In this document: positions 9,058 to 59,831 of the stretch, in pieces
Layout of the letters: each line of letters starts with the position of its first letter
Numbering within the stretch: position 1 is the stretch's first letter
Source of the DNA: Paenibacillus alkaliterrae
Lineage (GTDB): Bacteria > Bacillota > Bacilli > Paenibacillales > Paenibacillaceae
Direction: 5' to 3'
Length of the DNA stretch: 64,000 nt
Assembly: GCF_021532375.1 (NCBI RefSeq)
Contig: NZ_JAKGAP010000003.1
Location: forward strand, 1-64,000
Notes under the pieces: generated by a model
What the model saw: the letters and a program-made list of their open reading frames with translations, nothing else
Databases searched by the model: none
What the model was told of the DNA's origin: nothing
Program-made: the position numbers and the translations under genes

Positions 9058-9414
9058 CGCAGCGACACGCTCAATATTTAAACGATAGTCTCCTAAACCA
9101 ACATAAAACATGATTACTTCAAAACCGTTCTTTTTTGCCTCGCGTATTTGGCGAATGACGTTGCCACCTGCAAGGGTCGTTTCCACAGTAAAATCTCGCT
9201 TGTTCTGTATACAATCTCTGGCCAACTTTATAGCTTCTTTTCCTGCTGATACCTTACGCCGCTCAGGATGCTCACCATCGATTCCACGGGCTAAGGCGTC
9301 TGGATCGATGTTTACACTTACTCCAAGCCGATCTATGATTAGATTGCGTATCGTGCTCTTACCGCTTCCATTGTTTCCAGCAAAAACAAACATAGTGGCT
9401 ATTGGCTCACTCAT
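9058..9414 (-). pseudogene. Zeta-toxin-like P-loop kinase, cut by IS66 after codon 119
   Basis: The first 119 residues of a zeta-toxin family protein remain. The Walker A loop is GNNGSGKST at residues 13-21, NIDPDALARGI follows, and the substrate-side motif FTVETTLAGG is at about 75-84. Zeta-type toxins phosphorylate UDP-activated sugar precursors of peptidoglycan. The frame is interrupted precisely after RVAA by the IS66 terminus at 9057 and continues for 17 IS-encoded codons to a stop. Family members are about 190 residues or longer, so the C-terminal third is lost. The start ATG overlaps the upstream small gene by 8 bases (ATGAGTGA), a toxin-antitoxin style coupling. Confidence 0.8.
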
Positions 9415-28343: not shown

Positions 28344-28431
28344 TCGGATGATTAGGGGGAACCGTATACGGTTTCCCCTGGCTACCAAGAATGTCCTTTT
28401 TTACAAGAAGAATCTCGATAAAGTGCCTTAT

Positions 28432-28505
28432 GGCGCGCTATACTCGATTTGTACAATAACTTATCGCTTTCGAGTCCTGTTAGGCGCGCTATACTGGATT
28501 TGTAC
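28432..28505 (+). repeat. 51-bp-period repeat, locus 1
   Basis: GGCGCGCTATACTCGATTTG at 28432 recurs 51 bases later at 28483 as GGCGCGCTATACTGGATTTG; the stretch between includes AATAACTTATCGCTTTCGAG. The same unit with the same 51-base period occurs at 42.0 kb (inverted) and 59.7 kb. Its right edge cuts into the anti-sigma factor gene. Confidence 0.8.
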
Positions 28506-29162
28506 ATTCCCGATTGTGCCGACTGCCAGGCCGCAATCAAAGAGCTTCGCATCGTATGGGAGGCGTTACCCGAAACCATGGAACGATTCGAACCGCCAAA
28601 AGATTTGAAGAAGCAAGTCATGGGCGCCGCCTTAGCTGTGGAGAGAGAAAACGATCATACTAGTTTTGCAAGAAAGCCTATTTTCCGTAAAAGATGGAAA
28701 TCGATTGCCGCCATTGCCGTCGTATCCGCTTTCTTCTTCATAGGCTCCATCTGGAATTATCAGCTTTACCGCGAACGTTCGGCTGCTCCCCTTCCATTGG
28801 AGCAAGCATTAAATATTCCCGCTGCCCAAATTGAGCGTTTGGTTTCACTGAAGCCGGAAATGGCGGAAACCACTCGCACCTATGGTGTCGCCTGCATTGT
28901 CGATAACGGGCAGAACAAGCAGTTCATCGTATATGTGTTCGGAGTGAAAGCTTCAAAGGATACGCAAGCATACCAAGTATGGCTGCTCCAGGACGGCGAG
29001 CGCAGAAGTGCCGGTACGTTCCGCGTAGACGAGCAGGGGATCGGCGTATTGGCTTTGCCGATCGCTGCGGATAGCCCCAGCTTTGATTCGATCGGCATCA
29101 AGCTTGAACCGGATGATCGCGGTGATCAACCCCGCGGCGAAAAAATGTTTGGATCCATTTGA
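28449..29162 (+). pseudogene. Anti-sigma factor (RskA-type), 5' end replaced by a repeat
   Basis: The frame begins in the 51-bp repeat (TTG at 28449) and becomes protein-like at DCADCQAAIKELRIVWEALP, the second half of a zinc-binding anti-sigma domain (the His and first Cys-side helix are missing). Next come a single membrane segment (SIAAIAVVSAFFFIGSIW) and a C-terminal RskA domain ending with the family-like PRGEKMFGS. Such proteins hold an ECF sigma factor at the membrane, but no sigma gene is adjacent. About 25-30 N-terminal residues are lost, there is no ribosome site, and the product is probably not made or not functional. Confidence 0.65.
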
Positions 29163-41418: not shown

Positions 41419-41779
41419 ATATAAGTTGAACTAATGATAGCATAGTTTTTTCAGGTCCTATCAAGCATGTTGACAAAATAGCGTCGCTCCTGCGAGATGA
41501 ATGACGAATCTAACTGGAAAAGATCCCACTAAACTTGCTTCATCAGCGAGTAAGTAAGCTTTTGAGGGCGAATAGCGGATGGTGCGACGTATTAAGGCTA
41601 GTTTCTAGACCTAAGTTGGCTGAATGGGTTAGTTTGGTCGGATTAGATCTATTTTCTAGACTAATATGGGTGAGTGGTGGTTGCTTTTTAATAAAGTGTG
41701 TCTAAGACAGCTGGAATTATTCCAGTTCGTGCTGCCAGAGCAGCCGTGAACTCGCGAGATTGATTAGTTCAACTTATAT
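41419..41779. repeat. MITE-like repeat, copy 2 (complete)
   Basis: The best-preserved copy, about 361 bp, is bounded by the inverted repeats ATATAAGTTGAACTAAT (41419-41435) and ATTAGTTCAACTTATAT (41763-41779). Next to the right end is CTCGCGAGTTCACGGCTGCT (complement strand), and inside the left end is AAATAGCGTCGCTCCTGCGA. It encodes no protein. The gap 41245-41418 between it and the sensor gene contains only AT-rich promoter-like sequence. Confidence 0.82.
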
Positions 41780-41782
41780 TGA

Positions 41783-41962
41783 TCAGATAAGAGCAATGTC
41801 ATTTACGAAATGATTTCCACCCGGGGCTTCATTTCCTCGACTAATTATCTTCTTCCCAACCCACCAGAAAACAGCTTTGTCTCTAGATGTAACGGCACGA
41901 TACAACTCACCCATTTTCTGCGAAACATCCTTTGTAAATCTACGAATTTCAATTTCGCTCAT
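41783..41962 (-). CDS. Short ORF between two repeats, unidentified
   Basis: A 59-residue frame (starting MSEIEIRRFTKDVSQKMGEL, containing RDKAVFWWVGKK) lies between the MITE and the 51-bp repeat. It has no ribosome site, and the frame continues upstream into the repeat. It may be a remnant of the gene that the repeat cut. I cannot identify it. Confidence 0.25.
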   Translation of the reverse strand: MSEIEIRRFTKDVSQKMGELYRAVTSRDKAVFWWVGKKIISRGNEAPGGNHFVNDIALI

Positions 41963-41980
41963 GTTATTAACCAAGAGATA

Positions 41981-42046
41981 CTGTATATATCCATCATAGC
42001 GCGCCTAACTCGGCTTGGGAGCGAGAAGTTACTGTATATATCCATC
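41981..42046 (-). repeat. 51-bp-period repeat, locus 2 (inverted)
   Basis: CTGTATATATCCATC occurs at 41981 and again at 42032, exactly 51 bases apart, with AGCGCGCCTAACTCGGCTTG between. It is the complement of the unit at 28.4 and 59.7 kb. It truncates the HIT-family gene. Confidence 0.8.
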
Positions 42047-42247
42047 ACAAACAGCTTCAACGTATGCATTCATACTGAGATCAGTTAAATCCTTTATTTG
42101 CGGTGATCTCATTAATAAACAGTACCCCGGAAGAAACTGTGTTAATCCAATTAACGCAAAACCTGTTTTCATCCGTGCTAATACAGTTGGATTTTCTCCT
42201 CTTTCTGCTGAGCCGATAGGATCAATTAGCCATTTTTCTTTTTCCAT
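42029..42247 (-). pseudogene. HIT-family hydrolase, 3'-truncated by the repeat
   Basis: Sixty-odd residues (MEKEKWLIDPIGSAERGENP, then TGFALIGLTQFLPGYCLLM and IKDLTDLS) match the N-terminal half of a histidine-triad nucleotide hydrolase. The frame then runs into the 51-bp repeat (DGYIQ, stop). The catalytic HxHxH block is absent. Start ATG 42247 is weakly supported. Confidence 0.6.
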
Positions 42248-45720: not shown

Positions 45721-46045
45721 TGCGAGATGAACGACGAATCTAACTGGAAAAGATCCCGCTAAACTTGCTCCATCAGCGAGTAAGTGAGCTTTTGAGAGCC
45801 ATTAGCGGATGGTGCAACGTATTAAGGCTAGTTTCTAGACTTAAGTTGGCAAAATGGGTTAGTTTGGCCCGATTAGATCTATTTTCTAGACTAATTTGGG
45901 TGAGTGGTGAGCTTTTGAGGCCGCTTGGCGGGAGGTGCGACGAAATAAGTCTAGTTTCTAGATCTATGTATGCAGAATGGGTTAGTTTGGCCGGATTAGA
46001 TCTATTTTCTAGACTAATTTGGGTGAGTGGTGGTTGCTTTAATAG
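45721..46045. repeat. MITE-like repeat, copy 4 with internal 123-bp duplication
   Basis: It runs from TGCGAGATGAACGACGAATC to about TGGTTGCTTTAATAGAGTGC. The block beginning GTGAGCTTTTGA at 45784 is repeated at 45907 (123-base period), each copy ending TTTTCTAGACTAATTTGGGT and GAGTGGT. Other copies have one block or none, so copy length varies by tandem duplication. The remaining gap to 46221 holds no gene. Confidence 0.78.
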
Positions 46046-59645: not shown

Positions 59646-59654
59646 ATCATAGAA

Positions 59655-59731
59655 GATAGATTTATACAGTATCTTCACGCTCCCAAGCCCTGTTTGGCGC
59701 GCTATGATCGATTTTTACAGTAACTCCTCGC
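59655..59731 (+). repeat. 51-bp-period repeat, locus 3
   Basis: ACAGTATCTTCACGCTCCCA at 59666 and ACAGTAACTCCTCGCT at 59717 are 51 bases apart, with TTGGCGCGCTATGATCGATT between. It is the same unit as at 28.4 and 42.0 kb. Confidence 0.78.
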
Positions 59732-59831
59732 TTACAATTGCTTCTAACTTAGCGACCAGTTTATTCAAACATAGATTATCACAATTACTGATTTATTCAA
59801 CGAAATGCAAATGTCATGTTTCATAGTTTTC

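Follow-up and report, generated by a model that had tools for sequence, protein, structure and literature searches.

Helically spaced palindrome arrays beside a nuclease-like winged-helix protein: a putative new kind of DNA element in Paenibacillus and its relatives

Introduction

To our knowledge, REPs served by RAYT transposases are the only dispersed palindromes of bacteria with a known partner enzyme. In the available parts of two studies, REP and REPIN sequences are described as short palindromes between genes that occur singly, in pairs or in clusters and form patchy, species-specific families, with the enzyme gene flanked by matching palindromes (PMC3116915, PMC3733652). The elements reported here share these features, but the enzyme gene encodes a nuclease-like winged-helix protein instead of a Y1 tyrosine transposase, the arrays have a fixed helical spacing and an A/T rhythm and lack covariation between palindrome arms, and the TGGAT family has no GTAG tag, which does occur at the arms of one palindrome of P. 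cellulosilyticus. Intergenic clusters of palindromes and phased G/C suggestive of wrapped DNA relate the arrays to BIME-2 and the E. coli gyrase motif, for which the accessible part of the source gives a period of 10.75 bp over 130 bp (PMC6379681). The period here is 10.18 bp, a nuclease-like gene is linked, and the motif changes between relatives of the protein.

MITEs are likewise short, non-coding, dispersed and sharply bounded, whereas the arrays have no detected target-site duplication (TSD), no transposase partner of the terminal-inverted-repeat type, and internal phased sites. Pneumococcal BOX elements are modular, with a variable number of tandem modules of ~45 bp, and are similar to the arrays in this respect; we know of no phased palindromes or linked nuclease in them. 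DUF559/MTES_1575/Vsr-like nucleases are comparable in the domain assignment of the N-terminal core, but here a winged helix is added and arrays surround the gene; the one Polaromonas DUF559 gene examined (L416) has no period-51 array.

The starting point was a window of 64,000 nucleotides from Paenibacillus alkaliterrae (genome G000; 5.65 Mb, 169 contigs), of which a preliminary description had singled out a short fixed-period unit as a feature that it did not recognise; the unit indeed fits no class that could be matched. Full-text literature, in a search that covered few subscription journals, yielded no apparent description of such elements. Judged from sequence, they seem to be a type of bacterial DNA element that has not been described, with a protein that probably binds and cuts DNA at the palindromes. 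The nearest known system is REP/REPIN-RAYT, which has a similar logic and differs in enzyme, architecture and conserved signal; the arrays would be categorically new, with a function that is predicted.

The 51-bp repeat in the window

The unit with a 51-bp period had been reported at 28.4, 42.0 and 59.7 kb, and re-reading these loci bears out both its presence and the 51-bp spacing of the duplicated ends, with GGCGCGCTAT occurring exactly at 28432, 28483, 41996 (- strand) and 59696. The copies and the adjoining genes are as follows.

28432..28506, - strand: 51-bp family, ~1.5 units, two cores 51 bp apart, at a deletion junction
28449..29162, + strand: RskA-type anti-sigma gene, upstream sigma gene missing
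41783-41974, - strand: gene fragment whose counterpart is a 310-aa frame in G041, of which ~the first 34 residues alone match
41976..42047, + strand: 51-bp family, ~1.4 units, two cores 51 bp apart, core orientation on the + strand
59652..59738, - strand: 51-bp family, ~1.6 units

With up to three mismatches, ACAGTAACTTCTCGCT has five matches in the window against 0.27 expected; four of them (28453, 42020 on the - strand, 59666 and 59717) are the three loci, and the fifth, at 9185, is unrelated. GGCGCGCTAT alone, with one mismatch allowed, is not above chance in the window (8 matches, 7.72 expected). The three copies are worn fragments with a single site orientation. The gene at 42.0 kb had been called HIT, a name that finds no backing in Pfam at E <= 0.01; the frame on the other side of that repeat begins at its own natural start (GNAT-like, in the reading of the 310-aa G041 frame).

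At 28.4 kb, the repeat had been said to replace the 5' end of an anti-sigma gene. An RskA-type gene without its 5' part is present, as claimed, and the account needs to be enlarged, the preceding sigma gene being gone as well; gene names at this locus come from sequence reading plus an RskA_C match. The conserved part of the anti-sigma gene begins at ~codon 13-20, and its first codons are derived from the repeat. From the cupredoxin-side block to the anti-sigma block there are 722-729 bp in G023, G012, G045 and G003, against 130 bp in P. alkaliterrae; for G026 and G038, in which the aligned block ends earlier, the distances are 765 and 761 bp, against 173 and 162 bp. In G023 and G012, both displayed in full, the extra space is taken up by a gene of ECF sigma type and by the 5' end of the anti-sigma gene. 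As read from these alignments, the sigma gene was lost with ~0.6 kb of DNA, and the repeat marks the junction.

A separate observation on the stretch 28377-28507 is that a sigma gene is gone beside a retained anti-sigma remnant.

Distribution of the repeat

A search with the consensus unit found it dispersed over dozens of places in the P. alkaliterrae genome, 42 at E <= 10 (worst 2.8e-5), a count for which 40 of 53 candidates were scored. The 23-bp core pattern, with up to two mismatches, has 94 matches there and none for the reversed-pattern control. Loci examined in this genome contain one to five cores, almost always in the same orientation and 51 bp apart, the exceptions being one opposite-orientation pair at 74 bp and one gap of 94 bp, and the copies start and stop at varying phases. 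Slippage of a VNTR was ruled out as an origin, with copies dispersed and one period found across genera despite differing sequence.

Copies are also independent of orthologous positions. The consensus unit reaches E <= 0.001 in 2/51 genomes of the genus, P. alkaliterrae being one of the two, and the loci around the anti-sigma gene in 19 relatives, scanned with the general motif, show no phased site pair. In the congener G038, a diverged unit forms tandem arrays of identical period. Among 394 genomes of the family, the core pattern occurs in 21, and ATCCANNATAG-N39..41-ATCCANNATAG in 14 from 4/19 genera, P. alkaliterrae included, with 2 control matches overall; the distribution given here rests on the latter count, because the core pattern has 7 matches overall in the reversed control and several of its positives have a single match. 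Neither plasmids nor phages contain a match to the P. alkaliterrae unit, which leaves a plasmid or phage origin unsupported. One IMG/VR match to the unit pattern and five matches in genome contigs were set aside as lone, chance-like sites. Nine IMG/VR matches to the tandem pattern appear to be coding or chance repeats and have no 62-bp pair.

Palindromic sites and their spacing

Comparison between genomes shows each site to be an imperfect palindrome, CTATNNTGGA-(4 or 5)-TCCANNATAG. Sites occur in any orientation, and from one centre to the next there are 51, 62 or ~72 bp. Among the 280 distances below 150 bp between adjacent centres, 174 lie at 50-52, 66 at 61-63 and 4 at 71-73 (244 in total), and a further 14 lie at 111-114, that is, 51 + 62. 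These loci were largely picked by the 51-bp pattern, which biases the count towards 51 and not towards 62, and some places entered it under two locus ids. A Markov-shuffled control gave 36 sites and zero pairs. Rarer distances of 72-73 and 96-99 bp, observed at L337 and L206 (G023, G337), may be multiples of the helical repeat or reflect decayed sites.

Outside G000 and G038, the commonest form has four sites spaced 51-62-51 with mirrored halves, ~189 bp in all, and 26/30 intergenic four-site clusters are 187-191 bp long. Many copies in G337 align over the four-site stretch alone, and some pairs extend into other repeats. No TSD was detectable by eye, or by count over 59 elements: the longest word shared by the flanks averages 2.53, against 1.93 in swapped flanks, and a word of at least 6 is shared in 2/59. 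The 51-bp repeat is one branch of a wider class of palindrome arrays, with worn copies in the window.

The suggestion that the unit inserts into genes proved too strong. Among 70 clusters of at least two sites in 12 related genomes, 57 are intergenic and 13 overlap an open frame; 12 of the overlapped frames are 92-258 aa long, the array itself accounting for one of them, and the thirteenth has 1117 aa. The sole coding case that could be tested is the deletion junction at 28.4 kb. The 57 intergenic clusters lie between convergent (19), tandem (31) and divergent (7) genes; the corresponding numbers for 50 site-free gaps of at least 100 bp are 12, 23 and 15.

Phased composition of the spacers

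Spacers from different genomes are unrelated in sequence (identity 0.28-0.36, against 0.28 expected), and their A/T profiles correlate positively in all 36 genome pairs (0.12-0.80). In symmetrised profiles of 38 non-redundant elements from 9 genomes, A/T power around 10.2 bp amounts to 0.121; 300 shuffles give a mean of 0.008 and a maximum of 0.024. The period, from spacers alone, is 10.18 bp (95% 10.12-10.22), so that 51 bp corresponds to five helical turns, and 62 and 72 bp to about six and seven. Taken singly, 11 tandem arrays have 10.2 bp as the strongest harmonic in 8 cases (one of them a single unit), the second in one and the third in one; in the downstream array A of P. cellulosilyticus, it falls outside the top four. 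This A/T rhythm resembles that of protein-wrapped DNA, and wrapping is what it probably signifies.

Within a single genome, the view that spacers are random had to be softened, as copies in G374 and in G337 align along the element at ~67-93% among the matches listed.

A second array family and a MITE in the window

Three further features of the window belong with the 51-bp repeat or overlap it.

41500..41779, + strand: additional copy of the 123-bp family, whose sites, at 41598 and 41649, are 51 bp apart
45784..46032, + strand: 123-bp tandem repeat, two units, sites starting at 45828, 45879, 45951 and 46002 (51, 72 and 51 bp apart)
59687..59818, - strand: worn part of a 164-bp MITE, 79% identical to its positions 1-133

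The 123-bp repeat also belongs to the class and has a palindrome of its own, with the core CTAGTTTCTAG. An array of it lies beside a homologue of the linked protein described below, at C87:75751-76410 of the P. alkaliterrae genome; this homologue is 68% identical to that of G040, itself adjoined by sequence related to the 123-bp repeat. The window thus holds two members of the class, since the 123-bp repeat has sites spaced by 51 and 72 bp and adjoins a homologue elsewhere in the genome.

The 164-bp MITE carries one 51-bp unit, and the repeat at 59.7 kb is located within a worn MITE copy. At L039 (C6:4942-5105 of G000), the MITE has the ends, CATGACTTATGCAGTTCG, of an insertion sequence of IS701/IS4-like type, whose transposase scores below cut-off in NCBIfam and above cut-off for DDE_Tnp_1. 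This transposase was considered as mover of the arrays and rejected, for it accounts for MITE copies only. The C6 copy seems to be bounded by a direct repeat of 7-8 bp.

A protein encoded beside the arrays

The preliminary description had proposed to look for a linked transposase or integrase. A linked gene does exist, beside or between arrays, but the ~220-aa protein that it encodes is nuclease-like. Proteins of this one kind were first seen next to two element clusters in different genomes, and tblastn over all loci sampled found homologues in G016, G023, G337, G336, G374, G063 and G038 (part), as well as a more distant one in G040. Sites of the element pattern lie on both sides of the gene in G337, G336 and G016 and on at least one side in G374, G063, G023 and G038. 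Open frames around seven homologue genes, few of which were available for some, include no other common frame. When recurrent neighbours are counted, the nuclease family is present in 8/13 genomes and the next two families in 6, partly due to the inclusion of 20 long G000 windows. The adjacency in these genomes is not independent evidence, because the loci were picked for their elements. No homologue was found in the sampled stretches of G003, G012, G013, G052 and G338, nor one of TGGAT type in the sample of G000 stretches examined.

As an independent test, plasmid records were searched with the protein, and Paenibacillus cellulosilyticus KACC 14175 was the sole organism whose matches extend over 80% of the query. 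Both of its two homologues, matched at NZ_CP054613.1 949703-950329 and 1199411-1200040, have 51-bp arrays on both sides, and the palindrome differs between the two. Arrays of GTAGGTGCA-n-TGCACCTAC (motif A), one with 14 sites and one with 11, enclose the first homologue. The motif occurs in at least 46 places on two replicons, with 37/40 adjacent distances exactly 51 in the 400 kb sampled. The second has a 153-bp (3 x 51) repeat upstream, in which palindromes of the form TTAGAGGCGA-n-TCGCCTCTAA recur at 51 bp or multiples of it, and an array with 51-bp steps (one of 52) downstream. Two more arrays bear motif B. Sites of the TGGAT family end in CTAT/ATAG, and the P. cellulosilyticus arms start with GTAG (motif A) or TTAG (motif B). 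Five blind 50-kb windows of this record contained one period-51 array and, among other periods of 30-130 bp, its double alone; three non-blind windows contained five period-51 arrays and one of period 36. Near array B, a run of (CCCCTAAA)n with ~17 copies was noted at L415:5416-5558.

In all, four different palindromes each adjoin a member of one protein family; they go with three branches of the protein, one branch serving two palindromes, and two of the pairs occur within one strain. It is very likely that the ~220-aa protein acts on the arrays.

As to its identity, the Pfam family MTES_1575 (restriction-endonuclease-like) matches 8/10 proteins, at best with 5.1e-6 and always below the 38.2-bit cut-off, DUF559 exceeds its cut-off in L282 only (20.8 vs 20.6), and no nuclease model matched the two P. 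cellulosilyticus proteins at E <= 0.1. Asp68, Glu81, Gly84 and His88, at positions that we take to be where a Vsr/DUF559-like active site would lie, are invariant in 10/10 proteins; Asp83 is present in 9/10 and replaced by Lys in L386. Winged-helix Pfam families match the C-terminus weakly. The AlphaFold model supports the winged helix, for which the best PDB matches are MarR-type (E 1.4e-3, none reaching 0.001), and gives the core a low pLDDT and an uncertain fold. NCBIfam offered no convincing family, PADLOC-DB and PHROGs gave marginal partial matches only for five proteins (best 5.7e-4), and neither the protein search nor a scan of viral contigs found a phage record or relative. The sequences suggest, weakly as regards the nuclease, a Vsr/DUF559-like PD-(D/E)XK core followed by a C-terminal winged helix.

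Proposed mechanism and alternatives

Arrays and protein probably constitute a two-component element, with the arrays in cis and the ~220-aa nuclease-like winged-helix protein in trans. For this element, we infer that DNA is bound, wrapped and cut, and that arrays spread through the repair of breaks. The winged helix would bind the palindromes; the sites, on about one helical face of bendable DNA, would be wound onto an oligomer of protein; nucleases assembled there would cut at the arrays or at other targets; and array DNA would serve as template or filler when the breaks are repaired. Repair of this kind, a step that rests on the one junction at 28.4 kb, would spread arrays without a transposase, yielding copies with ends at any phase, as well as scars such as that junction. 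The role of the nuclease as driver of array spread is advanced tentatively and with some doubt. The boldest reading, a new selfish class in which a winged-helix nuclease assembles on and wraps arrays of its own palindrome, set five, six or seven helical turns apart, and spreads them by breakage and repair, while protein and palindrome change together, stands just below an even chance.

The main alternative, itself unlikely, is a domesticated regulator or nucleoid protein that organises the chromosome, insulates genes or controls its own gene, with passive spread of the arrays. Such a protein would suit the MarR-like winged helix, the arrays on both sides of the gene, the wrapping signature and the rarity of elements between divergent genes (7/57, against 15/50 site-free gaps), but it sits poorly with the patchy distribution (14/394 genomes) and with catalytic-type residues kept in 10/10 proteins. 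REP- or MITE-like repeats moved by an unlinked transposase, with the nuclease as a coincidental neighbour, are rather improbable: no Y1/RAYT turned up in G038, G013, G337 or G374, genomes rich in the elements, no TSD was seen in 59 elements, and 2/2 independently found homologues sit between arrays. PF01797 (Y1) reaches E <= 0.001 in 3/27 genomes, namely G000 (one partial), G002 (7) and G336 (two partial pieces). What this explanation does capture is that copies are dispersed, intergenic and sharply bounded and that an IS-derived MITE carries one unit in the P. alkaliterrae genome.

Very improbable is a set of gyrase-binding sites like E. coli BIME-2, with gyrase-wrapped DNA downstream of genes, despite the symmetric ~189-bp element, the phased A/T and the few divergent positions; in the available part of the source, BIME-2 is enriched in gyrase cuts, but the gyrase motif has its period of 10.75 bp over 130 bp (PMC6379681), against 10.12-10.22 bp here, and the palindrome varies with the neighbouring protein. 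A hairpin-based RNA or cruciform element would explain why every site is an imperfect palindrome, and it has the smallest chance of all: arm positions vary without covariation over 343 sites (at the two variable positions, pairing is 0.38 and 0.24, and shuffles give 0.40 and 0.35), the four-site element is mirror-symmetric, and Rfam gave no credible match (none at gathering in the window; 8 matches at ten element loci, E 0.036-0.93, all below gathering).

If the reading as a two-component element is true, these bacteria would have a second, unrelated solution to what REP/RAYT achieves, with a nuclease-like protein replacing the transposase, and DNA geometry (helical phase, wrapping) rather than sequence would be conserved as the signal. 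It would provide a natural protein on strongly phased DNA, protein-palindrome pairs for studying the co-evolution of recognition, and a testable route to the transposase-free spread of repeats and to deletion scars.
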